Shown: piece by piece, positions 18,853 through 32,506 of the stretch
How the letters are laid out: each line of letters begins with the position of its first letter
Numbering within the stretch: position 1 is the stretch's first letter
From: Nocardiopsis sp.
GTDB taxonomy: Bacteria > Actinomycetota > Actinomycetes > Streptosporangiales > Streptosporangiaceae
Reading direction: 5' to 3'
DNA length: 32,506 nucleotides
Assembly (NCBI GenBank): GCA_021154785.1
Contig: JAJKHX010000277.1
Location: 1 to 32,506, forward strand
Program-made: the position numbers and the translations under genes
Notes under the pieces: model-generated
Databases searched by the model: none
Told to the model about the DNA's origin: nothing
The model's input: only the letters and a program-made list of their open reading frames with translations

Positions 18853-19590
18853 TCACTGGAGCCGGTTCTCGCTGGATGTCCTCGACCCGGTGCTGGGCAC
18901 GCCGACGATCAGGTTCAGTACGCTCCCGATCAAGATGCCCAGACCGGCCCCCGCGACGACGTCCAATGGAAAGTGCGCACCGAGGTACACGCGTGACAGG
19001 CAGACCGCGGCGGCCAGTGCCCAGGGCAGGACCTTCGGCCATCTTTGCAGGTAGGGGACTACCAGAGCGGTTATCGTGAAGATCACCATGGCGTGACCTG
19101 AGGGAAAGCTCAGCCCATGAGCAGCGGAGTTGCCACGCAGGATCACGTCCGATACTGTCTCCGCGGGCCGGCTGCGCTGCACGAACATCTTCGCCACCGC
19201 CTCCAGCGATACCTTCAGCAGCACCGCCGCCGCCAGGGCAGCGGCCAGGCGGAATCTCCTCAGCAGCGCGGCCGCGGCTGCCAGCAGGGGAAGCGCCCCG
19301 ATCACTCCCGACAGCTGGACGACCCACATCGGCGGATCTAGCCACCCTGGCCAGTGATTGATCCGGTGGAACAGCGCCACGTCTGGACCCGCGACGAGCC
19401 GGTTCGCCACGAGCACCCCGCACACGATCACCACGCCGAGCCCGGCGGCAGCCGCGAGTACGTCGGCCCGTCTGCGCTGGTACACCCGGCCATCCGGGGT
19501 CCGGAACCACCACCGGGTCAGCCACCTGCCCGGTTTCCGCGCCCGGCCGACCGTGCCCGCGCCTGCCGGAGGAGCTGCTTCCCTGCTCAT
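18853..19590 (-). CDS. PAP2-family membrane phosphatase (module A)
   Basis: 245 residues with about five or six hydrophobic segments after a basic N-terminus. All three catalytic motifs of the PAP2 superfamily are intact: KMFVQRSRP (K134 to P142), FPSGH (162-166) and SRVYLGAHFPLD (S199, R200, H206, D210). Such proteins dephosphorylate lipid phosphates such as undecaprenyl diphosphate or phosphatidic acid, with the active site facing outside. Its ATG overlaps the stop of the PAP2-like/kinase fusion by ATGA. It is the last gene of module A. It is not closely similar to the PAP2 protein of module B, so the two were probably recruited separately or have diverged strongly. Confidence 0.92.
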   Translation of the reverse strand: MSREAAPPAGAGTVGRARKPGRWLTRWWFRTPDGRVYQRRRADVLAAAAGLGVVIVCGVLVANRLVAGPDVALFHRINHWPGWLDPPMWVVQLSGVIGALPLLAAAAALLRRFRLAAALAAAVLLKVSLEAVAKMFVQRSRPAETVSDVILRGNSAAHGLSFPSGHAMVIFTITALVVPYLQRWPKVLPWALAAAVCLSRVYLGAHFPLDVVAGAGLGILIGSVLNLIVGVPSTGSRTSSENRLQ

Positions 19591-21776
19591 CCCGGGCACA
19601 CGGCGCCGCGCCCGCACAGCGCAAGGTCTTCGGTGCGCCGGACGAAATCGACCAGCGTCGGCCGCGGCTGGAATCCGAGTGCGCTGCCGGCGGCATCGCC
19701 GAGCACCGGGGATGCGCCGGGCGTGAAGCTGAACCGGTAGGTGACGCAGCCGCCCGGGAAGGTGTAGAAGCGGAGGCTGGCGAACTGCGGCGCCAGGCTC
19801 AGCGGATGCTCGAACCGCCGCGCGCCGGGCTGGTCGGAGGGGATCTCCTGAGCGCCTGTGGTGTCGCAGGCCGCGGTCAGGGTGGCGGTGATCGCGCGGG
19901 ACCCGGCCCGATCGGAGTCCAGCCAGAAGCTGGCCTTCCCGCTGGAGATGTCCGCGCCGCCGATGCTCCAGCCGGACGGGAGCGCGGCGACGCAGGGCAG
20001 CAGGGCCGCGGACGGGACGGCCTGGGCGCTGAGGATCGTCGAGTGGCCGGTGCCGCAGGCGGGAGCGTAGACGCCCAGGTTCCTGGCCGCCGGGAAGAAG
20101 GCGTCCCCGGTCTCGAGCACGGCCGCCGTAATGACGGCGAGCATCGCGGCCGCCAGGGCGACCCGCTTGATGCTCCAGCGTTGCAGCACGATCGGCGGCC
20201 GGGCCGGGGCGAGGGCGCGGAATTCGCCGAGCAGGTCGCGCGGGTCCCGCTTCATGAAGGCGCGCAGCTGAGTCGGGCTGGCGACCCCGCGGGTGGCGGC
20301 GAATGCTTCGGCGAGCTCGTCTTCGGTGAAGTAGGTCAGGGCCCGCTGGTAGACCTGCTGCGGGTCGCTGCGGACCGCCAGGACCAGCATCATGTTGCCC
20401 AGGTCGACCGCTTGGCGCCACGGTGACGGGCGGACCTGGACGAAGGCCACGTCGATCAGCAGCAGCTCCCCGGAGCGGACCATCAGGTTGCCCGGCTTGA
20501 TGTCGCGGTGGGCGATCCCGGCGTCCCACATCATGCGGATCAGCAGCAGTCCCTGGTCGATCACGGCGTCGTCGACGTCGGCCTCGCCGATTTCGACGGC
20601 ACCGGCATGGAACTCGGTGACCAGCATGTACTCGCGCTCGGGGGTGATCTCCACGATGCCGTACGGCCGGGCCGTGCGGACCCCGATGTCCTGCAGCAGG
20701 CGCAGGGCATAGTCCTCGTAGGTGACCAGGCGCCGCACCGTCTTGAAGGAAGACTCGTCCTCCAGGGAGCCGTACAAGATGGTCCGCCACAGCTTGTACC
20801 AGCGGTCGGCGCGGACGTGGCCCTTGGTGTAGAGCTTGGCGAACAGGAACTCATCCGGGGCGCCCTCGACCCGCAGCCGCAGCGGCGTCGAGCCGGCGGA
20901 CGACTCCAGCCCGACCGGCTTGATCTCGGTCACCGTGAGCCCGAGCTGATCGCGCACGGCCTCCCGGATCGCCTCCCCTCGCCGGCCGGTCACGTCCACG
21001 TGCGCGGTGCGGCCGCGCCGGTACGCGACGGGAAAGACCTCGTTCGGGGTGAAGAACCGGAAGGCGGTGACCGCGATCGCCACGGCGAACGCCACGCCGA
21101 GCAGCACGTCGCCGGGGTGATCGACGCCCAGGTACAGGCGGGCCAGGCCGAACACGGCGACCACGGCGGCCACCGCGGCCTTGGCGTAGGAGCGGACGCG
21201 GCCCGGCACGGCCAGGCAGTAGACGGCGCCCATCAAGAAGATCGTGGCGACCGCCACCGGGGGCGACACTCCCGAGTATCCGGCCCAGCGGCCGATGATC
21301 GGCACGCCGTACGGGCGCGGCCGGGACAGCCCGAAGTAGATCGACTTCCCGGCAATCTCCAGGAACAACAAGCTGCCCAGGAACACCAGCAAGTGCCGCC
21401 AGCGCCGGAACACCATCAACAGCGCGACCACCGACAAGCCGACCGCGGTCGCCCCCCAGCCAGAACCCGCCTCGTTGATCCCGTTGGCCACATCGGTCAG
21501 CCACGGCGTTCGTATCCGTGCCAGCTGCAGCAGCGCCCAGGTGCTGGCCTGATCGTCGATCCGGAGCCACGGCGTGTGCTGCGCGGCCAGGAACGCGCCG
21601 GCCAGGGCCATGGCCATGAGGACCAGCCACGCCGTCGTGGTGATGGTGACCGGGTGCGGCAGCGGCGGCGGCGCGCCGGTCGGGCGGCGCTGACGGCGGC
21701 CTGTGTGGACCGCCGGGCCCGGCGGCACCATGGCCCGGCCATTCCCGGCGGCCGCGCGGCCGGTGTGCTCGCTCAA
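19587..21776 (-). CDS. PAP2-like / protein-kinase-like membrane fusion (module A)
   Basis: 729 residues. Residues 45-240 form a PAP2-like membrane domain in which the catalytic motifs are altered: the Lys-to-RP spacing is off, PSGH is replaced by SPPVAVAT (171-178), and the motif-3 His position is D219. Residues 280-530 are a kinase-like domain with K314 (LFAKLYTK), intact HRDIKPGN (423-430) and IDVAF at 441-445 in place of DFG. One membrane helix (about 538-555) follows, then an extracytoplasmic domain with six or seven cysteines. The start is a TTG overlapping the upstream stop (TTGA); it aligns with the ATG of the module B paralog (both MSE-T-R). It probably couples phosphorylation inside the cell to a membrane or external signal. 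The substrate is unknown. Confidence 0.85.
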   Translation of the reverse strand: MSEHTGRAAAGNGRAMVPPGPAVHTGRRQRRPTGAPPPLPHPVTITTTAWLVLMAMALAGAFLAAQHTPWLRIDDQASTWALLQLARIRTPWLTDVANGINEAGSGWGATAVGLSVVALLMVFRRWRHLLVFLGSLLFLEIAGKSIYFGLSRPRPYGVPIIGRWAGYSGVSPPVAVATIFLMGAVYCLAVPGRVRSYAKAAVAAVVAVFGLARLYLGVDHPGDVLLGVAFAVAIAVTAFRFFTPNEVFPVAYRRGRTAHVDVTGRRGEAIREAVRDQLGLTVTEIKPVGLESSAGSTPLRLRVEGAPDEFLFAKLYTKGHVRADRWYKLWRTILYGSLEDESSFKTVRRLVTYEDYALRLLQDIGVRTARPYGIVEITPEREYMLVTEFHAGAVEIGEADVDDAVIDQGLLLIRMMWDAGIAHRDIKPGNLMVRSGELLLIDVAFVQVRPSPWRQAVDLGNMMLVLAVRSDPQQVYQRALTYFTEDELAEAFAATRGVASPTQLRAFMKRDPRDLLGEFRALAPARPPIVLQRWSIKRVALAAAMLAVITAAVLETGDAFFPAARNLGVYAPACGTGHSTILSAQAVPSAALLPCVAALPSGWSIGGADISSGKASFWLDSDRAGSRAITATLTAACDTTGAQEIPSDQPGARRFEHPLSLAPQFASLRFYTFPGGCVTYRFSFTPGASPVLGDAAGSALGFQPRPTLVDFVRRTEDLALCGRGAVCPG

Positions 21777-22729
21777 TGCGCAACGCCCCTTTCCGGGATC
21801 AGCCCGTGTGCGCGCAGCCAGGCCCTGGCCACCGAACGAGGTTCGTGCCCGTCCAGCTCTACCTGCGCGTCGAGGGCGCGCAGGGTGCCGGTGTCCAGCA
21901 GAGCCGAGATCCTGTTGAGCAGTGCGACCAGGTTGGGGCCGTAGCGCACGATGACGTCCCTGCGCACCAGGGGAGTGATGTTCTCGGCCGGCTGCAGCCC
22001 GCGGTCGTCAGCCAGGATGACCAGGTGATGTGCCGGGATGCCCGGGTCGGTGGTGAACAGCAGCGCGACGCCGACGTTCCCCGCCTCCAGGGCCTGCAGG
22101 GTCAACGGGCCTCCGGCGTCGAGCGGGATGAATGCCTTGAACCGCAGCCCGTAGGCCCGCTGCAGGCCGGGCAGGCAGTAGGCCCGTTCCGGGCATTCGG
22201 GCGGGCCGCCGAAGACCAGCCGTGGTGCCGCCCTGGCCAGGTCAGCGATCGACCGCAGCCCGTAGCGGGCGGCAGTCGCGGCGGTGACCACGATCGCGTT
22301 GGCGTCCCGCGCCGGGGCCGGGTGCGCCGCCACCAGCCCGCGGCCCGCCGCCGACCCGGTCAGTGCCCTGTTGGCCGCCTCGGCATCGGACGGGGCGGAC
22401 AGCCGTCCCAGGCTGATGAATTCCAGCGCCGACCCGGCGTACTCCGGCACCAGCTGGACCAGGCCGTCCATCAGCGCGGGATCGACCAGCTCGCGCGGGC
22501 CCAGATTCGGCAGGATCCGTACCGGGAAGTTGCCTGCGGCGAGCGCCTGCCCGTAGATCTGGGCGAGCAGGACGCTCTCGGGGAAATCGAACGACCCGAC
22601 CGTGATGACCGTGCCGGGCCGCCCGGCTGGGCCGGCGGCGGACGAGACGTGACCGCTTGAGGACGTACAGGCTGACAGCGTGACCACCAGCCCGGTGCAG
22701 GCCGCCGTCAGCACCGCGCGGGGTGTCAT
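21773..22729 (-). CDS. Glycine-betaine-type ABC substrate-binding lipoprotein, without permease
   Basis: 318 residues. A lipoprotein signal peptide ends LSAC with the lipidated cysteine at 21. The rest matches osmoprotectant-binding proteins of the OpuC/ProX class: VGSFDFPESVLLAQIYGQAL, NLGPRELVDPAL and LVQLVPEYAGSALEF in lobe one, and a hinge followed by PPECPERAYC (probable disulfide) in lobe two. Such proteins bind choline, glycine betaine or similar quaternary amines outside the membrane. No ATPase or permease gene accompanies it. Its ATG shares ATGA with the flippase fusion stop, and its own stop overlaps the TTG of the next gene, so it is firmly part of module A. Confidence 0.9.
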   Translation of the reverse strand: MTPRAVLTAACTGLVVTLSACTSSSGHVSSAAGPAGRPGTVITVGSFDFPESVLLAQIYGQALAAGNFPVRILPNLGPRELVDPALMDGLVQLVPEYAGSALEFISLGRLSAPSDAEAANRALTGSAAGRGLVAAHPAPARDANAIVVTAATAARYGLRSIADLARAAPRLVFGGPPECPERAYCLPGLQRAYGLRFKAFIPLDAGGPLTLQALEAGNVGVALLFTTDPGIPAHHLVILADDRGLQPAENITPLVRRDVIVRYGPNLVALLNRISALLDTGTLRALDAQVELDGHEPRSVARAWLRAHGLIPERGVAH

Positions 22730-25143
22730 ACGTAGCCCCGCCGTAGCAGGGCGCGCCAGGCCAGCCAGCCCGGCGCCACGGGCAGCCAGTAGGTGGCCAG
22801 CCGGTACAGCAGCACGGCCGAAACGGCGGGTCCGGCCTGCATGCCGACGCCGGTCAGGCCGGCGATCAGGGCCGCCTCGATCGCGCCCAGGCCGCCGGGG
22901 CTGGGGGCGGCGGCCGCGATCGCCGCGGCACCCATGTACACCGCGCCGATGAGGATGACGCCCGGCCCCCCGCCGAATGCCTGGACGGAAGCGGCGAGCG
23001 CGCCGACGTACGCCAGCGTGATCAGCGCCGACCCCCCGAACAGCATGATCATCTTGACCGGGTTCCGCGCCACCCGCCGGAGGCTGACAGCGGCCGACTT
23101 CAGGCCGGGGATCAGCTTGCCCGTGGCGAGGCGGCGGCCTGGACGGGTCGCCAGCACGATGCCGATGATGGCCGCGATGATGGCCAGTATCAGCAGCAGC
23201 TTGCTGCTCGAGGGCAGCTTGAAGGCGTTGGCGAGCCCGTGGCCGGACCAGGCGACGAAGGCGACCAGCAAAACCAGGTGCACGATGGCGCCGGCCAGGC
23301 TGTTGACTCCGACCGCGGCGACGCCGGCGCTGGTCTCCACCCCGGATCGTTGCAGGTACCGGGCGTTCAGCGCCATGCCGCCGACGTTGGCCGGGGAGAC
23401 GCGGTTCACGAACGAGGAAGCCGCCTGGGCCAGCACGGTGGGCCAGAACCGGATCCGCTGCGGCACCGCACCGATAAGCCCGGCCGCGCTGGCCAGGTAG
23501 GTCGCGGCCGATAGGGCGATGACCAGGGGCAGCCATGCCCAGTCAGCCGACTGGACGGCCCGCCAGCTGCCGCCTACCTGGGCTAGCTGGGGGAGCAGGT
23601 AGTAGAACGCGCCCGCGGCCGCAGCGATCGCCAGCAGGGTCCTGGGGCGGACGCGCTGGATGCGGGCCAGTTCGGTGTCTTCCCGGCCGGCCGCGGCGGC
23701 GGCCGCCGCCCGGGTCTTCGTCAGCAGGCCGTCCTGGCGGCCGACCGCGCGGCGGGTGCCAGCCGACAGAGCAAGCGGCTGCAGCAACGGCACCGCCGCC
23801 GCCACGCCGTCGGAGCCGATGACCGCGGCTGCGGTGGCGACCGCTCGGTCGGCCCCGATGATGGCAGCCAGGGAGGCCAGCAGCTCGGCGACGTCGAGCG
23901 CCATCTGGCGCTGCGTGGCGCCCAGCTCCGAGAAGCTGAAGTCGACAACCCAGGGCCGCCCGGTACCGTCGGCCACGATATTGGCTGACCGCAGCGAGCG
24001 ATGCGCGATCCGCGCCCGGTGCAGCCCGTTCACCTGCTCCCACAGCTTCCGCAGCATCGTGTCGCTCAGGCGCTGCACGGGGATCAGGTCCAGGGAGCTG
24101 CCATCGACGCGGTCCATCACCAGCAGCGCCGACCCATCGGAGGTCTTGATCACCTGGCGGACGGCGGGCACCGCCACCCCGGCCCGCTCCGCCATGACAG
24201 CGGCGAGCGCCTGATGCTCGACCGCCTGGATGAGCGAGGCGGCGGGCCGGGCATCGCCGACGTCGCGCAGCCGGATGAACCGGTAGGCGCGGTACAGCAG
24301 GTCGGCGTCCCGCTGATCCGAGCCGAGCACCTTGATGAACAACGGCTTCCCGTCCCCGGCGGCCGCGACGAACGGCCGCGAGCCCTTCGCCTCGGCCCTG
24401 GCCGGCTCGACGCTGGTCACCGGCAGCCCCGCCGAGCCCAGCGCTGTCGCGATCTCCTGCGGGCCGAGGCGCCGGTCGGGCACTCCGAATAGGACGAGCA
24501 CACCGGCCCCGGCCGTTACCCCGGCGGCGAACGCCACGACCGTTTCCGCCGGCGAGACCGTGCCGGTAACCAGCCACGCGATGGCGGCCAGCCACAAGGT
24601 GACCCAGGCGACGCGCCGCCACGGGCGGCCCAGCCACGGCGCGGCGGCGACCGTGACCGCGACGGCGGCGGCCAGCAGCGCGGGACCGGCCAGCGACCCG
24701 CCGGCCAGCCACGGCCACTGGCCGGCTCCGGCCGCCAGCTCGCGGGGCCGCTGTCCGCCCGCGAGCTCGATGACCCCGGTCACCACCGCGCTCGCCAAGA
24801 CGGCGGCACCGGCCAGGCCGGCCAGCAGCCGGAACCGGCGGTAACGCAACGTTACGGCCACTGTGGCGGCGGCCGCGGTGACGAGGACCGCCAGGACCCC
24901 CCCGGCCAGCACCCGGCCCGCCAGGGCGGCAGGCGCCAGCGCAGTCACCGCAGCAGCGCTGGCTCCGGCATAGGTGGCGTGGGTGATGATGGTAACCGCC
25001 AGCGCTCCGGCCAGCACCAGCCCGGCGGCGCCCAGGCGGATTACATCGCCTGGATGCCGGTAGCGAGTCGGCGGCAGAAGCCGGGCCCGGTTTTTCGCGG
25101 TCTCCGCACGGGGCCTGGCCCGGGTTCCGGGTGATGTTGTCAT
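22726..25143 (-). CDS. Kinase-like / LPG-synthase-type flippase fusion (module A)
   Basis: 805 residues. The N-terminal part (35-225) has about six hydrophobic segments. Residues 225-480 form a kinase-like domain with K271 (FIKVLGSDQRDADLLYRAYR), H381-R382-S383 with N388 (HRSLRSAN) and D401 (VVDFSF). The HRD aspartate is replaced by serine. Residues 500-805 are the YbhN/LPG_synthase_TM membrane domain (FVNRVSPANVGGMALNARYLQRSG; AAPSPGGLGAIEAAL), as in the flippase half of MprF but without the aminoacyl-transferase half. It probably moves a lipid across the membrane under control of the pseudokinase. TGGAG precedes the ATG. It is the first gene of module A and has a paralog at 30865. Confidence 0.88.
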   Translation of the reverse strand: MTTSPGTRARPRAETAKNRARLLPPTRYRHPGDVIRLGAAGLVLAGALAVTIITHATYAGASAAAVTALAPAALAGRVLAGGVLAVLVTAAAATVAVTLRYRRFRLLAGLAGAAVLASAVVTGVIELAGGQRPRELAAGAGQWPWLAGGSLAGPALLAAAVAVTVAAAPWLGRPWRRVAWVTLWLAAIAWLVTGTVSPAETVVAFAAGVTAGAGVLVLFGVPDRRLGPQEIATALGSAGLPVTSVEPARAEAKGSRPFVAAAGDGKPLFIKVLGSDQRDADLLYRAYRFIRLRDVGDARPAASLIQAVEHQALAAVMAERAGVAVPAVRQVIKTSDGSALLVMDRVDGSSLDLIPVQRLSDTMLRKLWEQVNGLHRARIAHRSLRSANIVADGTGRPWVVDFSFSELGATQRQMALDVAELLASLAAIIGADRAVATAAAVIGSDGVAAAVPLLQPLALSAGTRRAVGRQDGLLTKTRAAAAAAAGREDTELARIQRVRPRTLLAIAAAAGAFYYLLPQLAQVGGSWRAVQSADWAWLPLVIALSAATYLASAAGLIGAVPQRIRFWPTVLAQAASSFVNRVSPANVGGMALNARYLQRSGVETSAGVAAVGVNSLAGAIVHLVLLVAFVAWSGHGLANAFKLPSSSKLLLILAIIAAIIGIVLATRPGRRLATGKLIPGLKSAAVSLRRVARNPVKMIMLFGGSALITLAYVGALAASVQAFGGGPGVILIGAVYMGAAAIAAAAPSPGGLGAIEAALIAGLTGVGMQAGPAVSAVLLYRLATYWLPVAPGWLAWRALLRRGYV

Positions 25144-25314: not shown

Positions 25315-26055
25315 TCAAGTGACCGGTGCGGCCGGAGCCGGTGCCCAGGCGCCCGATGCGGGTGCGAGGTCATCGGGTGCGGGGGCGGGCAGGCCGGTTT
25401 CGCCCTGGTCCAGGCGGAACGGCGGGTAGGCGTCGGTCATCAGGGCGGCGTAGGCGATGACCCGCAGCACCCAGCGGTTCATGCCGACGACGAAATCGTG
25501 CAGTCCGCGCGGGTAGCGGCCCGCGAACAGCAGCGCGATCGCGGCGAAGAACACCAGCAGCCCGATCAGCCCGCCGTAGAACGCATCAGCTTGCCACGTG
25601 TTGTGCCCCGAGGCCCCGGTCGCGGTGTAGGCGGCGCCGCCGGCGAACACGGTGACGATGGCGTACTGCGGGATCGCCAGCAGCCACCACTTGACCAGGA
25701 CCAGGCCGCGGGAGAGCCGTCCGGGGTAGGCGATGTCCAGCGTGGCGGGGTAGTCCGGCTCCTGGCCCAGGCTGAACGGCGGGTAGCGGTCGGTCCCCAG
25801 GGCACTGTAGGTGTAGTAGCCGACCCGCCAGGACCAGCGCAGCACCCCCAGATTGAAGCTGAACAGCGGCCGGGGGTAGCGGCCGGTGAGCAAGATCGCG
25901 AAGAACGCGATGACGGTGACGACGGCGAACGCGACCCACAAGAAGAACAGCACGATGTAGTGCGGGATCGCCAGCAGCCACTTGACCAGCCACAGCCAGC
26001 GGCTCAGCGGCTCGTCGAGATGGGCTCGGACCTGCACGGGGTAGCCCTGGTCCAT
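25315..26055 (-). CDS. DUF4389 membrane protein
   Basis: 246 residues made of two similar DUF4389 units. Unit one runs from [32 protein letters not shown] to GTDRYPPF; unit two runs from [30 protein letters not shown] to MTDAYPPF. Each has a pair of membrane helices and a GRYPR motif. A Pro/Ala tail follows. The function is unknown for the family. ATG 26055 is decided by AAGGAGGAG just upstream. It lies 171 bases before the flippase fusion on the same strand, so it may be transcribed with module A, and a LysR-type dyad sits about 210 bases upstream of its start. Confidence 0.88.
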
Positions 26056-26263
26056 GGTCTCCTCCTTGTCGGCGCCTGCGGATGCCACGTCCATGTCACG
26101 GCACGTGATGCGCGCGCCAGGGGCGGATCATCCGGGCCTGAAGTCCCCATCCCCGGCCTGTCTAGGTGATTCCGGAGAGGGAAGCAGCGTCGTGGTGCAG
26201 AGCTCTCTGGTTGTCAGCAGACGGCACTGCGCTGTCGGGGGAAAGGGCCAATCGGAGCATGTC

Positions 26264-26302: not shown

Positions 26303-27217
26303 TCACCCGGCCGCCTGGCCGGATGTTTCTAGCCAGCCCAGCTCCCGTGACAGCTGGCGGGCGCAGGACACCATGGCACGGACCGGCCCGGAGTGGTCTT
26401 CGGCCCGCCACAGCACCGACCACGGATAATAGGACACCGGCTCGGTCAGGGGCCGCCACACCATCCCGGGATGGGCGGGCACGCACGAGGCTGGCGCGCA
26501 CAGCACCGTGCGGCCCTGCGCGACCAGGTCGACGGCCGCCCGGATGCTTTCCACGGTCCCGCGGTACACCGCGGGCAGGAAGCCGGCGGACCGGCACAAC
26601 TCGATCACGAACTGGTTGAACTCCGGCGCCCGCGCCTCCTCGGCGAGCAGCAGCGGTTCGCCGGCCAGGGTCGCCACCGGGACGCCCGGCGACCGGGCGA
26701 AGCGGTGCCCCTGGCGGACCAGGACGCCCAGCGGGTCAAGCCGGAGCAGCTCGGAGGCCACCTCGGCCGGGGCCAGCGACGCCCGCCCGATCCCGATGTC
26801 CAGCCGCCCGCTGGCCAGCAGCAGGTACTGCTCGGGCACCCCCGCCTCTACCTGGTGAACCTCGAGGTCCGGGAAGCGGGCCTGGACCCGGCGCAAGATC
26901 GCCGGCATCGAGTCATAGCTCGCATCGACCGTTCCCACCCGCAGCGCAGGCGCCGACCGGGCCGCCCGCTGCGCGGCCGCGGCGGCCCGGTCGACGTGCG
27001 CCAGAATCTGCCGCGCCTCCGGCAGGAACACGGTCCCAGCTGCGGTCAGCCGCACGTGATGGGTGGTGCGCTCCAGCAGCGGAGCCCCGAGTTCTCGTTC
27101 CAGCCGCTGCACCTGCTGGCTCAACGCGGACTGCACGATATGCTCACGGGCCGCCGCCCGCCCGAAGTGCAGCTCCTCGGCCAGGGTGACGAAATAGCGC
27201 AGCTGGCGAAGCTCCAC
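26303..27217 (-). CDS. LysR-family transcriptional regulator
   Basis: 304 residues from GTG 27217 (VELRQLRYFVTLAEELHFGRAA), the usual family opening, with GGGGGTGG upstream; ATG 27232 and ATG 27259 are alternatives. The winged helix-turn-helix covers about 18-60 (SALSQQVQRLERELGAPLLER). Residues 90-290 are the effector-binding domain (LRVGTVDASYDSMPAILRRVQARFPDLEVH). It resembles regulators of aromatic-acid or stress genes, but the ligand is unknown. It is divergent from the zinc-finger gene and upstream of DUF4389 and module A on the same strand. Matching dyads on both sides suggest autoregulation and control of DUF4389. Confidence 0.9.
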   Translation of the reverse strand: MELRQLRYFVTLAEELHFGRAAAREHIVQSALSQQVQRLERELGAPLLERTTHHVRLTAAGTVFLPEARQILAHVDRAAAAAQRAARSAPALRVGTVDASYDSMPAILRRVQARFPDLEVHQVEAGVPEQYLLLASGRLDIGIGRASLAPAEVASELLRLDPLGVLVRQGHRFARSPGVPVATLAGEPLLLAEEARAPEFNQFVIELCRSAGFLPAVYRGTVESIRAAVDLVAQGRTVLCAPASCVPAHPGMVWRPLTEPVSYYPWSVLWRAEDHSGPVRAMVSCARQLSRELGWLETSGQAAG

Positions 27218-27324
27218 GCCGACCACCCCCATCCGCTGTACCGCTCCGCCGTCGCTCATCCCAGCAGAGCACCTCGGCGTCCACACCGCAAGACCAGCGC
27301 CCGCAGCCGGGAACCAGCACGTGT

Positions 27325-27349
27325 TATCACGCCAGCAGATGACCGCTGC
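27325..27349. promoter_or_regulatory. Candidate LysR-type operator, copy 2
   Basis: TTATCA followed by CAGCAGATGAC matches the copy at 26264 in about 19 of 25 positions, though its dyad is imperfect. It lies in the divergent gap, 65-110 bases upstream of the possible lysR starts and 40-64 upstream of the zinc-finger gene, where a LysR protein usually binds. Confidence 0.5.
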
Positions 27350-27376
27350 TCGCGTTGGCCGTTTCCGAGCAGGCGC

Positions 27377-27382
27377 AGGAGG
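27377..27382 (+). promoter_or_regulatory. Consensus ribosome binding site deciding an ATG start
   Basis: AGGAGG stands six bases before ATG 27389 and identifies the start of the small zinc-finger gene within a much longer open frame that shadows lysR. Confidence 0.8.
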
Positions 27383-27388
27383 CGTTGC

Positions 27389-27724
27389 ATGGGACATGGC
27401 CACCTCGCCGCCGTGGCCAGATCCGAGGCTCCGATGCCAGCACGTAAAGACCAGGGCGACGGTGCCCGCCCGGGCCCATGCCAGCACGCCGCCGCCATCC
27501 ACCCGGTAACGCCGCCCGCAGGCGGCTGCCAGCCCTGCCTGGATCGCGGGGGCACCTGGGCCCGGCTCTGCCTGTGCCAATCCTGCGGATGGGTCGCGTG
27601 CTCCGACGACTCACCCGGCCAGCACGCCAAAGCACACTACGAAGAAACCGACCACCCCGTCGTCATCCTGCTCCAGCACCCGCACCCGGCGGCATGGTGC
27701 TATGCCCACCAGCGCACCGTCTGA
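27389..27724 (+). CDS. Small UBP-type zinc-finger protein
   Basis: 111 residues. The second half has the spacing of a ZnF-UBP domain: C31-x-H33, C47-x2-C50, C63-x2-C66, C71, H79, H83, H89 and a WCY..H end (104-107). The line WARLCLCQSCGWVACSDDSPGQHAKAHYEETDHPV is typical of bacterial members. In eukaryotes this domain binds free ubiquitin C-termini; the bacterial role is unknown, and here it stands alone with no protease domain. It is divergent from lysR. The open frame continues far upstream antisense to lysR and that part is not real coding sequence. Confidence 0.83.
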   Translation: MGHGHLAAVARSEAPMPARKDQGDGARPGPCQHAAAIHPVTPPAGGCQPCLDRGGTWARLCLCQSCGWVACSDDSPGQHAKAHYEETDHPVVILLQHPHPAAWCYAHQRTV

Positions 27725-27983: not shown

Positions 27984-30161
27984 ATGAGCGAGAACACCGA
28001 GCGCACCGTAGCGCCGGCCGCCCCGCCGGGCAGCGTCCCGGCGCAGCGGACTGCCCGCCAGCGGCGTCCCACCGGCGCGCCGCCGCCGCTGCCGCATCCG
28101 GTCAGGCTCAGCACCACGGCCTGGCTGGTGCTGGCGGTCGTGATCGTGGCCTGCGCGTTCCTGTTCTCGGCCGAGACACCCTGGCTCCGGGTCGACGACC
28201 GGGCCAACACCTGGATCCTGCGCCTGCTGGCGCAGGCGCGGACGCCGTGGCTGACCGATGTCGCCGGCGGGATCAAGGCAGCCGGCTCGGGCTGGGGAGT
28301 CACCGTGCTCGGCCTGTCGGTGGTAGCGCTGACCATGATCTTCCGCCGCTGGCGGCATCTGCTTGTCTTCCTGGGAAGCCTGTTCTTCCTGGAGATCGCC
28401 GGGCAGTTGATTTATTTCGGCTTGTCCCGCCCGCGCCCGTACGGCATCTCGATCATCAGCGGCTGGGGCGGGTACTCGGCGCCATCTCCGCCGGTCGCCG
28501 TGCTGACCGTCTTCCTGATGGGCGCGGTGTACTGCCTGGTGGTGCCGGGCCGGCCGCGCGCGTGGGCCAAGGCCGTGGTGGCCGCCGTGGTGGCCCTGTT
28601 CTGCCTGGCCCGGCTGTACTTGGCCGTCGATCATCCCGACGACGTGCTGTTCGCCGTGGCGCTCGGAGTCGCGATACCGGTCACGGCCTTTCGCTGGTTC
28701 ACCCCGAACGAGGTGTTCCCGGTCGTCTACCGCCGGGGCCGGACCGCTCATGTCGACGTCGGCGGCCGCCGCGGCGACGCGATCCGGCTGGCTATCCGCG
28801 ACCAGCTCGGGCTGGCCGTCCTCGAGATCAAGCCATTCGGCCTGGAGTCGTCGGCAGGCTCGACGCCGCTGCGGCTGCGCGTCGAAGGGGGACCGGACGA
28901 GTACGTCTTCGCGAAGCTGTACACCAAGGGTCACGTGCGCGCCGATCGCTGGTACAAGCTGTCGCGGACCATCCTCTACGGCTACCTGGAAGACGAGCAT
29001 CCCTTCCAGACCGTGCGGCGGCTGGCCGAGTACGAGGATTACACGCTGCGCCTGCTGCGCGACGCCGGGATCCACACGGCCCAGCCGTACGGGATCGTGG
29101 AGATCACGCCCGAGCGTGAGTACATGATCGTCACCGAGTTCTTCGACGGCGCCGTCGAGATCGGCCACGCCGACGTCGGCGACGAGGTGATCGACCAGGG
29201 GCTGCGGCTGATCCGCAAGCTCTGGGACGCGGGCATCGCGCACCGGGACATCAAGCCCGGCAACCTCATGATCCGCGACGGCGAGCTGCTGCTGATCGAC
29301 GTGGCTTTCGTCCAGGTGCGGCCGTCGCCGTGGCGGCAGGCGGTCGACCTCGGCAACATGATGCTGGTGCTGGCCGTCCGCAGCGACCCGGACCGGGTCT
29401 ACCAGCGGGCGCTGCGCTACTTCACCCCGGCCGAACTCAGCGAGGCCTTCGCCGCGACTCGCGGGGTAGCCAGCCCGGGCCAGCTACGCGCGTTCATGAA
29501 AAAGGACCCGCGCGACTTGCTGGGCACGTTCCGCGCCCTGGCCCCGCCGCGGGAGCCGATCGTGCTGCAGCGCTGGGGCCTGCGGCGTATCGCCCTGGCC
29601 CTGGCTGTCCCGGCCAGCCTCCTGCTCACCTGGATGGTGGCCGGCGACGCGTTCTTCCCGGCCGAGAACATCGGCGCGCATCCGCCGCTGTGCGGCACTG
29701 GCCATGCCATGATCCTGGTCGCGCAGGCGGTCCCGTCCGCGGCCCAGCTGCCCTGCGTGTCCGACCTCCCGTCCGGCTGGCGGGTCGGCGGCGCCGACAT
29801 CGCCAGCGGCCGCTCGGTGTTCTGGCTGGATTCGGACCAGGCCGGCCCCCGGGCCGTGACCGTCACCCTGTCCGCGGCCTGCGACGTTTCCAGCATCCAG
29901 GCAGAGCCCTCCGACCAGCCGGGCACGCGACGATTCGACGGGCCGCCCACCGTGGGCACCCGGCTCACCGGGCTGCGCATCTATACCTTCCCCGGCGGAT
30001 GTGCGAGCTACCGGCTCGACTTCGCGCCCGGCGCATCGTCGCTCCTCATTCCCGCGCTGGACGGCATGGTGACTTTCGTGCCGCGGGCCAGGCTGGTGAA
30101 TTACGTCAGGGCCAGGGAGGGCCTGACGCTGTGCGGACGGGGTGCGCCATGCCCCCGGTAG
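27984..30161 (+). CDS. PAP2-like / protein-kinase-like membrane fusion (module B)
   Basis: 725 residues, a close paralog of the protein at 19587-21776 along its whole length. The PAP2-like domain (45-240) again lacks the catalytic pattern: the motif-1 Lys is Q141, SPPVAVLT replaces PSGH and D216 takes the place of the motif-3 His. The kinase-like domain keeps K311 (FAKLYTK), HRDIKPGN (420-427) and D439 (IDVAF). A single helix near 535-550 precedes an extracytoplasmic cysteine-containing domain ending CGRGAPCPR. GGGGGAGG precedes the ATG. Its stop lies 13 bases inside the next PAP2 gene. Two copies with the same pattern of lost and kept residues argue for conserved function rather than decay. 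Confidence 0.86.
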   Translation: MSENTERTVAPAAPPGSVPAQRTARQRRPTGAPPPLPHPVRLSTTAWLVLAVVIVACAFLFSAETPWLRVDDRANTWILRLLAQARTPWLTDVAGGIKAAGSGWGVTVLGLSVVALTMIFRRWRHLLVFLGSLFFLEIAGQLIYFGLSRPRPYGISIISGWGGYSAPSPPVAVLTVFLMGAVYCLVVPGRPRAWAKAVVAAVVALFCLARLYLAVDHPDDVLFAVALGVAIPVTAFRWFTPNEVFPVVYRRGRTAHVDVGGRRGDAIRLAIRDQLGLAVLEIKPFGLESSAGSTPLRLRVEGGPDEYVFAKLYTKGHVRADRWYKLSRTILYGYLEDEHPFQTVRRLAEYEDYTLRLLRDAGIHTAQPYGIVEITPEREYMIVTEFFDGAVEIGHADVGDEVIDQGLRLIRKLWDAGIAHRDIKPGNLMIRDGELLLIDVAFVQVRPSPWRQAVDLGNMMLVLAVRSDPDRVYQRALRYFTPAELSEAFAATRGVASPGQLRAFMKKDPRDLLGTFRALAPPREPIVLQRWGLRRIALALAVPASLLLTWMVAGDAFFPAENIGAHPPLCGTGHAMILVAQAVPSAAQLPCVSDLPSGWRVGGADIASGRSVFWLDSDQAGPRAVTVTLSAACDVSSIQAEPSDQPGTRRFDGPPTVGTRLTGLRIYTFPGGCASYRLDFAPGASSLLIPALDGMVTFVPRARLVNYVRAREGLTLCGRGAPCPR

Positions 30162-30868
30162 CGGAAGATCAGGTGCTGGCCGCCCGTCGCCGGGACGCGG
30201 TCGTCACCGCGGTGGTGCTGGCGCTCACCGCGGCGGCGTTCGCCGCGGTCGCCGACCACGGCGTCCTGTCTCACCTGCAGCGGGCCGACGACGCGTGGCT
30301 GCGGCTCATGATCTCCGGCCGTTCGGCGCCGGTCACGGCGGTGGCCAAGGTCTTCAACTGGCTTGGGCTGGTCTACGTCACACTTCCGGTCCGGATCGGC
30401 ATTGCCGGCTTCCTCGCGCTGCGCCGCCGGTGGTGGCACCTGGCCGCGTTCGCCGCCGCCATCGTGCTGTCCGAGGTCCTGATCGGCACGCTGAAGGGGA
30501 TATACGACCGGGCCCGGCCGCCCGGATCGCTGGTGGCCACCAGCGGTGCCTCGTTTCCTTCCGGGCATTCGATCGCCGCCACCGTGACCGTGATCGCCGC
30601 GGTCATCGCGCTGGTACCGCCCGGCCGTGCGCGGGTGGCGTGGGGCGCGGCCGCGACGGTCTTCTCGGTCCTGATGGCGCTGTCCCGCGCCTACCTCGGG
30701 GCGCACTGGCTGTCCGATGCGCTGGCCGGGGTCCTCCTCGGCGCCTCGTGCGCGCTGCTGGCCGCCTTCGCGGTGGGGGAACTCCAGGGCCGCCGGACCG
30801 CGCACCGGGCCGCCCGTTCGGCCCATCCGCCCATCCCGGGCGCCGCCCGTCCGGCTGACCGGCGATGA
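30149..30868 (+). CDS. PAP2-family membrane phosphatase (module B)
   Basis: 239 residues, about six membrane segments. The motifs are complete: KGIYDRARP (K116 to P124), FPSGHS (136-141) and SRAYLGAHWLSD (S179, R180, H186, D190). It should dephosphorylate a lipid phosphate or diphosphate at the outer face of the membrane. It overlaps the stop of the preceding fusion gene by 13 bases and shares ATGA with the flippase fusion that follows. It aligns poorly with the module A PAP2 outside the motifs. Confidence 0.92.
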   Translation: MPPVAEDQVLAARRRDAVVTAVVLALTAAAFAAVADHGVLSHLQRADDAWLRLMISGRSAPVTAVAKVFNWLGLVYVTLPVRIGIAGFLALRRRWWHLAAFAAAIVLSEVLIGTLKGIYDRARPPGSLVATSGASFPSGHSIAATVTVIAAVIALVPPGRARVAWGAAATVFSVLMALSRAYLGAHWLSDALAGVLLGASCALLAAFAVGELQGRRTAHRAARSAHPPIPGAARPADRR

Positions 30869-32506
30869 GCAGTTCTCCGGTCTCGGTCCCGGCGGGTCCC
30901 CAGCCACCTCCCCGGCCCCCTTCGCTGCCGTCCTCCCGCTACCGTCACCCGGGAGACGTGATCCGGCTGATATCGGCGGCCCTGCTGCTGGCCGGCGCGT
31001 TCGCCGCCTCGGCGGCCGCGTTCCGGTGGCTCCTCGGCCCGGCCGCACCCGTACCCGGCGGTCTCGGGGCAGCCGGCCGGGTCATCACCGGCCTGGTGCA
31101 GGTGGCCTACCTGGCCGCGGCGGTCGTGGTGGTCGCGGCCACGCTCCGCCGGCGCCGGTTCCGGCTGCTGGCCGGGCTGGCCGCCGGGGCGGTGGCCGCG
31201 GCTGGCCTTACGGCCGGGATCTTCGCCCTGCTCAGTGCCGTACTAGGGGCCGAGCGCCCGGCCGCGCTCACCGCCCATCAGGCCCGCGGCTCCTGGCTGG
31301 CCAGTGGCGCGTTCCCCGCCCCGGCGCTGCTCGCCGCCGCGGCCGCCGTGGTCGTGGCGGCCGCGCCCTGGCTGAGCCGGCCGTGGCGCCGGGCGGCGTG
31401 GCTCGCGCTGCTGCTGGCCGCCGCGGCGCGGCTGCTGGTCGGGGCGGTCCTGCCGGCGGAGGTGATCCTGGCCCTGGCCGCCGGTGTCACGGCGGGAGCC
31501 GCGGTGCTGGTGACGATGGGGGTCCCGGACCGGCGGATCGGACCGGCCGGGATCACGGCCGCGCTGCGGCACGCGGGCCTGCCGGTGGAGTCGGTCCGCC
31601 CGGCCGAGGTCGAGGCTAGGGGCTCGCGGCCGTTCGCGGCGGTCACGGCGGACGGCCGGCGGCTGTTCGTCAAGGCCCTGGGCTCGGACCAGCGCGACGC
31701 CGACCTGCTGTACCGGGGGTACCGGGCGATGCGGCTGCGAAATGTCGGCGACACCCGGCCCGCCGCCTCGCTCCTGCACGCGGTCGAACATCAGGCCCTG
31801 GTCGGGTTGATGGCCGAACGGGCCGGGGTCTCCGCACCCGGAGTCGACCGGGTCGTCCGGGCCGGGGACACCGTGCTGCTCGTCATGCCCTGGACCAGCG
31901 GCTGCTCGCTGGACCGGCTGCCGGCCGGCCAGATCGGCGACGGCCTGCTCACGCGGCTATGGGCGGAGGTGGGCAACCTGCACCGGGCCGGCATCGCGCA
32001 CCGGTCGCTGCGGGCCGCCAACGTGATGGCCGGCCCGGCCGGACAGCTGACAATCGTCGACTTCAGTTTCTCCGAGCTCGATGCCACGTCGCGGCAGATG
32101 GACCTGGACGTGGCCGAACTGCTGGCCTCGCTGGCCGTACTGGCCGGCGAAGACCGGGTCGTCTCCGCCGCGGCCGATGTCCTCGGCGCTGGGCGGCTGG
32201 CCCGGGCGGTGCCGCTGCTGCAGCCGCTGGCCCTGTCCGCCGCCACCCGCAAGGCGGTCGCGCGGCACGACGGCCTGCTCACCCGGACCCGGGCCGCGGC
32301 CGCCGCCGCCAGCGGCCAGGAGCCGCCTGAACTGGCCCGCGTGCAGCGGGTGCGACCGCGGACCCTGCTCGCTATCGCCGCGCTGACCGGAGCGTTCTAC
32401 TACCTGCTGCCCAAGCTGGCTCAGGTCGGCAGCAGCTGGCACGCCCTGCAGTCGGCGCACTGGATCTGGCTCCCCGTGGTCATCGCCTTCTCGGCGCTGA
32501 CCTATC
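30865..32506 (+). CDS. Kinase-like / flippase fusion (module B), cut by window end
   Basis: 547 codons are visible. The protein is paralogous to the one at 22726-25143: a proline-rich N-terminus, then RYRHPGDVIRL as in module A, about six membrane segments, and a kinase-like domain with FVKALGSDQRDADLLYRGYR (Lys), HRSLRAAN and IVDFSFSE. The HRD aspartate is again serine. The flippase membrane domain begins just before the end (RTLLAIAALTGAFYYLLP). The remaining about 260 residues lie outside. The ATG overlaps the PAP2 stop by ATGA. A gene for a binding lipoprotein may follow outside the window, as in module A. Confidence 0.87.
   Translation, partial: MSSSPVSVPAGPQPPPRPPSLPSSRYRHPGDVIRLISAALLLAGAFAASAAAFRWLLGPAAPVPGGLGAAGRVITGLVQVAYLAAAVVVVAATLRRRRFRLLAGLAAGAVAAAGLTAGIFALLSAVLGAERPAALTAHQARGSWLASGAFPAPALLAAAAAVVVAAAPWLSRPWRRAAWLALLLAAAARLLVGAVLPAEVILALAAGVTAGAAVLVTMGVPDRRIGPAGITAALRHAGLPVESVRPAEVEARGSRPFAAVTADGRRLFVKALGSDQRDADLLYRGYRAMRLRNVGDTRPAASLLHAVEHQALVGLMAERAGVSAPGVDRVVRAGDTVLLVMPWTSGCSLDRLPAGQIGDGLLTRLWAEVGNLHRAGIAHRSLRAANVMAGPAGQLTIVDFSFSELDATSRQMDLDVAELLASLAVLAGEDRVVSAAADVLGAGRLARAVPLLQPLALSAATRKAVARHDGLLTRTRAAAAAASGQEPPELARVQRVRPRTLLAIAALTGAFYYLLPKLAQVGSSWHALQSAHWIWLPVVIAFSALTY

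Follow-up and report, generated by a model that had tools for sequence, protein, structure and literature searches.

What does a membrane protein do when it carries a lipid phosphatase domain with a broken active site, joined in a single chain to a kinase domain whose catalytic loop is intact? This question is raised by a 32,506-nucleotide stretch of a Nocardiopsis sp. contig (referred to here as the window), for which a sequence-only reading had proposed a fusion of a degenerate PAP2 domain with an intact kinase domain in two copies. We found both copies as described, one at 19587-21776 on the minus strand (P0001, 729 aa, TTG start) and the other at 27984-30161 on the plus strand (P0006, 725 aa, ATG start). 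The two proteins share the same architecture and are 72% identical over their full length, and a third copy, with 48% identity, is found on a different contig of this genome.

The fusion proteins of the window

P0001 consists of a cytosolic tail with RRPTG..PPPLP, a six-TM pseudo-PAP2 domain, a kinase domain, one TM helix and a secreted domain, in this order. In P0006, the corresponding parts are the pseudo-PAP2 domain at residues 40-243, the kinase at approximately 261-520, the TM helix at 533-557 and the secreted domain at approximately 560-725. In an AlphaFold2 model of P0006 (37 homologues; mean pLDDT 85, pTM 0.73), residues 1-38 are predicted to be a disordered tail, 40-239 a helical membrane domain and 588-712 a terminal domain rich in beta structure. 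The long open frames, the operon overlaps and dN/dS values below 0.6 in all domains rule out that the fusions are pseudogenes.

A PAP2 homologue without its nucleophile

Both window fusions match PF01569 with E-values of 5e-5 to 1e-4, at scores of 22.1 and 23.4 bits, which fall under the gathering cut-off of 27.2, and the third genomic copy reaches 32.0 bits, above this cut-off. Alignment of the fusion-family profile with the intact partner PAP2s by hhalign gave a probability of 99.7% and an E-value of 7e-26, and the best PDB relative of the domain is B. subtilis PgpB/YodM (5jki, E 3e-13). Judged from these profile comparisons, the membrane domain of the fusion is a genuine PAP2 homologue.

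We took the residue equivalences from the hhalign profile alignment. In motif 1, the lysine is replaced by Tyr144 and the Arg/Pro pair is retained as R151 and P152; PSGH is replaced by P167-S168-P169-P170, where P0001 reads VSPP; in motif 3, the serine has become Ala209 and the nucleophile histidine Asp216, with the arginine and the relay aspartate retained as R210 and D220. This mapping bears out, for both copies, the earlier readings of SPPVA and of a His to Asp exchange. The broader statement that the PAP2 motifs are broken holds for one part of the active site only. Across 36 homologues, the nucleophile histidine and the lysine are absent (0/36 each) and the acid histidine is left in a single protein (1/36), but the remaining residues are still present, R151 in 35/36, S168 in 34/36, R210 in 29/36 and D220 in 35/36. 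The nucleophile position is occupied by Asp in 31 of the 36, and N, A or F also occur at 216. The fusions in this set therefore lack the signature of an active PAP2 (KX6RP, PSGH and SRX5HX3D with the nucleophile histidine). As a control, 17 adjoining stand-alone PAP2s were put through the same alignment procedure and retain the catalytic motif residues, which rules out an alignment artefact as the source of the motif loss. The pseudo-PAP2 region shows dN/dS values of 0.11-0.37 in five pairs; the domain is therefore under purifying selection, constrained rather than decaying.

A useful reference point is the E. coli PgpB mutant H207A, which has no detectable activity (PMC7413402). Its melting point rises by 14-17 C with phosphate or pyrophosphate (by 17 C with phosphate), a stabilisation that the authors ascribe to R104, S161 and R201 holding the phosphate while TM3 moves (PMC7413402). 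R151, S168 and R210 of the fusion occupy the positions of these three residues, and by this analogy the fusion looks like a natural counterpart of the binding-only H207A state. Because the fusions carry Asp rather than Ala at the nucleophile position, binding may require a cation or an amino head group to balance the charge.

A single ancestral loss

The sequence-only reading had taken the identical breakage of the two copies as parallel loss. This does not hold: the window copies are paralogues, and the motifs are lost throughout the clade to which both belong. A tree of 72 PAP2 domains places the 30 fusion domains on a single branch (SH-aLRT 97) with no active member, nearest the PAP2b-type partners (support 85). 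Since all homologues found, from several Actinomycetota families, share this state and form one clade, the motif loss is on phylogenetic grounds ancestral, a single event inherited by both window copies.

The fusion occurs in 21 of 296 sampled Actinomycetota genomes. Carriers of the pseudo-PAP2-kinase protein are uncultured soil actinobacteria, and the named relatives are metagenome-assembled genomes, including peat-bog Acidimicrobiaceae and Streptosporangiaceae. It was absent from 150 sampled order-mates, leaving the window's genome as the sole carrier among 151 of its order, and is common in another order (13/27 genomes), so that horizontal gain is likely and offers the simplest account. A contig foreign to the genome was ruled out: the transketolase encoded in the window has about 61-70% identity to those of the genome's own class and no more than 57% to those from the rest of the phylum, so that the contig is in keeping with the actinobacterial genome.

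The kinase domain and the cytosolic tail

On the kinase side, the sequence-only reading of an intact HRDIKPGN was confirmed, and this loop is invariant across homologues. The same reading had noted DVAF in place of DFG; the letters are right, but they mark no defect, as the metal-binding Asp is invariant and the residues following it vary in the family. K311 (K314 in P0001), E351, D422, K424, N427 and D439 show no variation among the homologues covering them, and the family carries the signature RPSPWRQAVDL. A Foldseek search with the kinase model returned 542 PDB matches at E<=0.001 (best E 4e-7), which include protein kinases and RIO/Bud32 kinases, with RioK1 (4otp) at a TM-score (target) of 0.57. 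The beta3 Lys, the alphaC Glu, the HRD Asp, the Asn, the metal Asp and the fold are thus all of the protein-kinase-like type, and the domain, predicted to have a protein-kinase fold, keeps all catalytic residues.

Curated families are less informative about the substrate. The domain scores 19-21 bits against Pkinase (PF00069, cut-off 31.7) and 12-13 bits against PknB_PASTA_kin (cut-off 450), all scores for the Bud32, RIO and Kdo-WaaP families lie under their cut-offs, and no DAG-kinase catalytic domain was matched at E<=1 in the domain-family searches. Because the kinase falls under every curated family cut-off, family membership gives no substrate. The cytosolic tail carries a near-invariant motif, RRP[T/S]GxxPPLP (28056-28094 on the plus strand, P0006 residues 25-37), in which position 30 is Thr or Ser in 35 of 36 homologues. 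We regard it as a candidate autophosphorylation or docking site.

Membrane topology and the exported domain

The C-terminal domain of the first copy (19590-20096, minus strand) is homologous to stand-alone lipoproteins elsewhere. At eight loci, the terminal domain is encoded as a separate downstream gene, and these detached domains are preceded by lipoprotein-type signal peptides that end in a lipobox-like Cys (for example LLASC, ALGAGAC and GLAGC). Because the stand-alone versions carry such signal peptides, the C-terminal domain is placed outside; one TM helix separates it from the kinase, which is therefore placed inside, and the six TM helices ahead of the kinase in turn put the tail inside and the PAP2 pocket outside. 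An outward pocket agrees with the layout of active PAP2s, and the Arg-rich inner-side loops FRRWRH and GRPRAWAK, read from the sequence, fit this topology. By this sequence evidence, the PAP2 pocket and the exported domain are outside and the kinase is inside. This arrangement disfavours the earlier suggestion that the membrane domain presents a lipid to its own kinase for phosphorylation, because pocket and kinase lie on opposite faces of the membrane. For the exported domain itself, the best PDB matches (BT_1490, LpqN and PsbP-like proteins; E >= 0.005, TM-score <0.4) serve as a lead only.

Overlapping genes for a phosphatase, a flippase-like protein and a lipoprotein

The first fusion gene is embedded in an operon with a 4-nt overlap at each junction, in the order PAP2*-kinase*-LPG_TM (asterisks mark decayed domains), OpuAC-type lipoprotein, fusion and intact PAP2. 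The leading gene (22726-25143, minus strand) encodes a flippase-like LPG_synthase_TM protein with an N-terminal decayed PAP2 and a decayed kinase (HRS). It is followed by the OpuAC-type solute-binding lipoprotein (21773-22729, minus strand), which overlaps the gene upstream (ATGA) and the fusion (TTGA), and the operon ends with the intact stand-alone PAP2 P0010 (18853-19590, minus strand; KX6RP, PSGH, SRX5HX3D), whose start overlaps the fusion stop by 4 nt (ATGA). Around the second copy, the order is fusion, PAP2 and PAP2*-kinase*-LPG_TM, and no OpuAC gene is present. Here the intact stand-alone PAP2 of another subtype, P0011 (30149-30868, plus strand), starts at an in-frame ATG at 30149 within the 3' end of the fusion (13-nt overlap) and in turn overlaps by 4 nt the second PAP2*-kinase*-LPG_TM gene (30865-32506, plus strand), which is cut by the window end. 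A DUF4389 protein is encoded upstream of the first operon (25315-26094, minus strand), and an open frame (26393-27724, plus strand) that ends in a zf-UBP domain lies opposite a LysR regulator (26303-27580, minus strand).

We counted partners within 3 kb of the 19 fusions that have at least 2.5 kb of sequence on both sides. An intact PAP2 is present near 14, an LPG_TM protein near 12 and an OpuAC protein near 10; all three accompany 8 fusions and at least one accompanies 15. The chance expectation for PAP2 is about 0.02 per locus (17 PAP2 matches in 6.7 Mb). Fusion, intact PAP2, flippase-like LPG_TM protein and orphan OpuAC lipoprotein form a conserved overlapping operon, described here as new. 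Five of the 19 fusions lack an intact PAP2 within this distance, and near four of these five the LPG_TM and OpuAC genes are missing as well; the fusion therefore does not require its partners in cis. P0010 is of the distant PAP2a type and only 23% identical to P0011, and the two window copies hence have different PAP2 subtypes; it seems to be less important which PAP2 stands beside the fusion than that PAP2 activity is available there.

The OpuAC-type lipoprotein matches PF04069 with 148.6 bits and ProX (1sw1) with an E-value of 1e-24. Several positions that we take to be the ligand-cage Tyr of ProX read Asn, Phe or Glu, and its ligand may therefore differ from glycine betaine. Among the recurrent neighbour clusters with examined examples, for which annotation is partial, no ABC permease or ATPase was found beside it. 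A lipid flippase function is attributed to the LPG_TM (UPF0104) domain (PMC5898192).

A second lineage of PAP2-kinase proteins

The LPG_TM proteins start with PAP2 and kinase domains of their own. Our survey of them covered the two window proteins (22726-25143, minus; 30865-32506, plus) and the loci L074, L075, L078, L079 and L080-L099. In L074, L075, L078 and L079, PAP2 and kinase are both intact (PSGH, HRD, DFG), while both are broken in the window proteins (HRS) and both are degenerate in the large genomes of the same class. Annotated as 'lysylphosphatidylglycerol synthase domain-containing protein', these proteins resemble the fusion in having a PAP2 followed by a Bud32/Kdo-like kinase, and copies stand in the same operons; they differ in the extra LPG_TM flippase-like domain and in that some keep both active sites. 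Their PAP2 domains also sit in a different part of the tree from those of the fusion, so that either the architecture has two or more origins or domains were exchanged. A further protein (L061:11439-13805, plus strand), adjoining a pseudo-PAP2-kinase gene, joins an intact PAP2 (VSGH) to an intact Bud32-like kinase (HGDL..DFG). Because the LPG_TM proteins and L061 also combine the two domains, PAP2-kinase fusion is a recurrent event, after which one active site or both can decay. PAP2-kinase-LPG_TM proteins were found in other Actinomycetota, including named Mycolicibacterium plasmids; to the fusion itself, the plasmids gave only distant kinase-region matches. Two tandem PAP2 domains occur in single open frames at L104 and L103 (G000:C135, G000:C296).

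Proposed function and alternatives

We tentatively propose, with a confidence a little short of even, that the fusion is a transmembrane receptor kinase with a pseudophosphatase sensor for a phosphorylated envelope lipid. The earlier proposal of a membrane domain for sensing or holding a lipid gains support, as an inference, from the retained phosphate-holding residues R151, S168 and R210 (PMC7413402). The outward pocket would bind a phosphorylated lipid without cleaving it; polyprenyl and glycerolipid phosphates are the most likely candidates, and the active PAP2 neighbour and the flippase-like protein would set the level of this lipid. The exported domain and the lipoprotein might modulate this binding, and binding would change the TM bundle and switch the cytosolic kinase. 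The kinase would then phosphorylate itself, perhaps at the tail Thr/Ser of RRP[T/S]G, and also a protein that acts on envelope lipids, which could be the phosphatase or the flippase encoded next to it. The purifying selection on the pseudo-PAP2 domain, the invariant kinase residues, the frequency of partner genes above chance, the 4-nt overlaps of the first operon and the signal peptides of the detached C-terminal domains also speak for this reading. Several points weigh against the sensor: R210 is missing in 7 of 36 homologues, some fusions have no partner genes nearby, the kinase belongs to no curated family that would suggest a substrate, and the Asp carboxylate would repel phosphate if no cation or amino head group offset its charge, which makes a ligand other than a bare lipid phosphate conceivable.

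The main rival, which we hold to be unlikely though worth serious weight, is a lipid or glycolipid kinase cycle, in which an inner-leaflet lipid or lipid-linked sugar is phosphorylated, LPG_TM flips it and the intact PAP2 dephosphorylates it outside, with the pseudo-PAP2 as a lipid-docking anchor. The operon supplies exactly the kinase, flippase-like protein and phosphatase that such a cycle needs, in L074, L075, L078 and L079 a single polypeptide carries an LPG_TM domain together with PAP2 and kinase domains that are both intact, and the weak kinase matches include Kdo/WaaP and RfaY lipopolysaccharide kinases. However, HRDIKPxN is a catalytic loop of the Ser/Thr protein kinase type and Pkinase is the top kinase match in Pfam, the pseudo-PAP2 pocket faces away from the kinase side, and pure catalysis leaves the conserved exported domain and the orphan binding lipoprotein unexplained. 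We consider it improbable that the fusion instead controls the active PAP2 beside it by heterodimerisation, the kinase phosphorylating phosphatase or flippase directly and the pseudo-PAP2 sensing no lipid. The grouping of the fusion PAP2 nearest the PAP2b partner clade is in line with this, as are the overlapping fusion and PAP2 genes, which favour co-translational assembly; yet such control would not need conservation of the Arg/Ser/Arg pocket, and the partner of the first copy is of the distant PAP2a type, so that a specific interface is not kept. Asp-based phosphatases are known in other folds, and R151, S168, R210 and D220 are retained, but it is very hard to credit that the domain has kept phosphatase activity through a remodelled active site in which Asp216 replaces His: a nucleophile would not tolerate the change to N, A or F seen at this position, and PgpB H207A is without detectable activity (PMC7413402).

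If the sensor reading is true, the fusion is a direct candidate gauge of lipid carrier pools, whose measurement by bacteria is poorly understood. The wider claim is doubtful at present, namely that these proteins form a new class of bacterial receptor kinases in which nucleophile loss made a lipid phosphatase into a sensor, and that the phosphorylated envelope lipid sensed, which may be the polyprenyl carrier, is handled by the phosphatase and flippase encoded alongside. Related PAP2-kinase-LPG_TM proteins lie on Mycolicibacterium plasmids, and the principle may extend to well-studied genera.

Comparison with known systems

PASTA-type receptor Ser/Thr kinases such as PknB and Stk1 combine a cytosolic HRDxKPxN kinase, TM segment(s) and an exported C-terminal domain, all of which the fusion shares. 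Unlike them, the fusion lies outside the Pkinase and PknB cut-offs, has a six-TM pseudo-PAP2 before the kinase, and no PASTA domain was found in it. PAP2/diacylglycerol-kinase fusions, a name used in NCBI annotation, likewise place a phosphatase and a kinase in one membrane protein; in contrast to these, our searches found no DAG-kinase domain in the fusion, whose kinase has a predicted protein-kinase fold. A literature search on bacterial PAP2-kinase fusions, covering mainly openly available papers, found no description of the fusion protein. With PgpB and YodM (PF01569), the fusion has in common the fold, the TM layout, the motif positions, the Arg/Ser/Arg set and the relay Asp, whereas the nucleophile His, the acid His and the Lys are lost family-wide and a kinase and an exported domain are added. 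The human protein PLPP7/NET39 is eukaryotic, with no kinase and no operon, and is likened here by description and not by sequence; like the fusion, it has a PAP2 fold without catalytic residues, kept for another role (PMC7564803).
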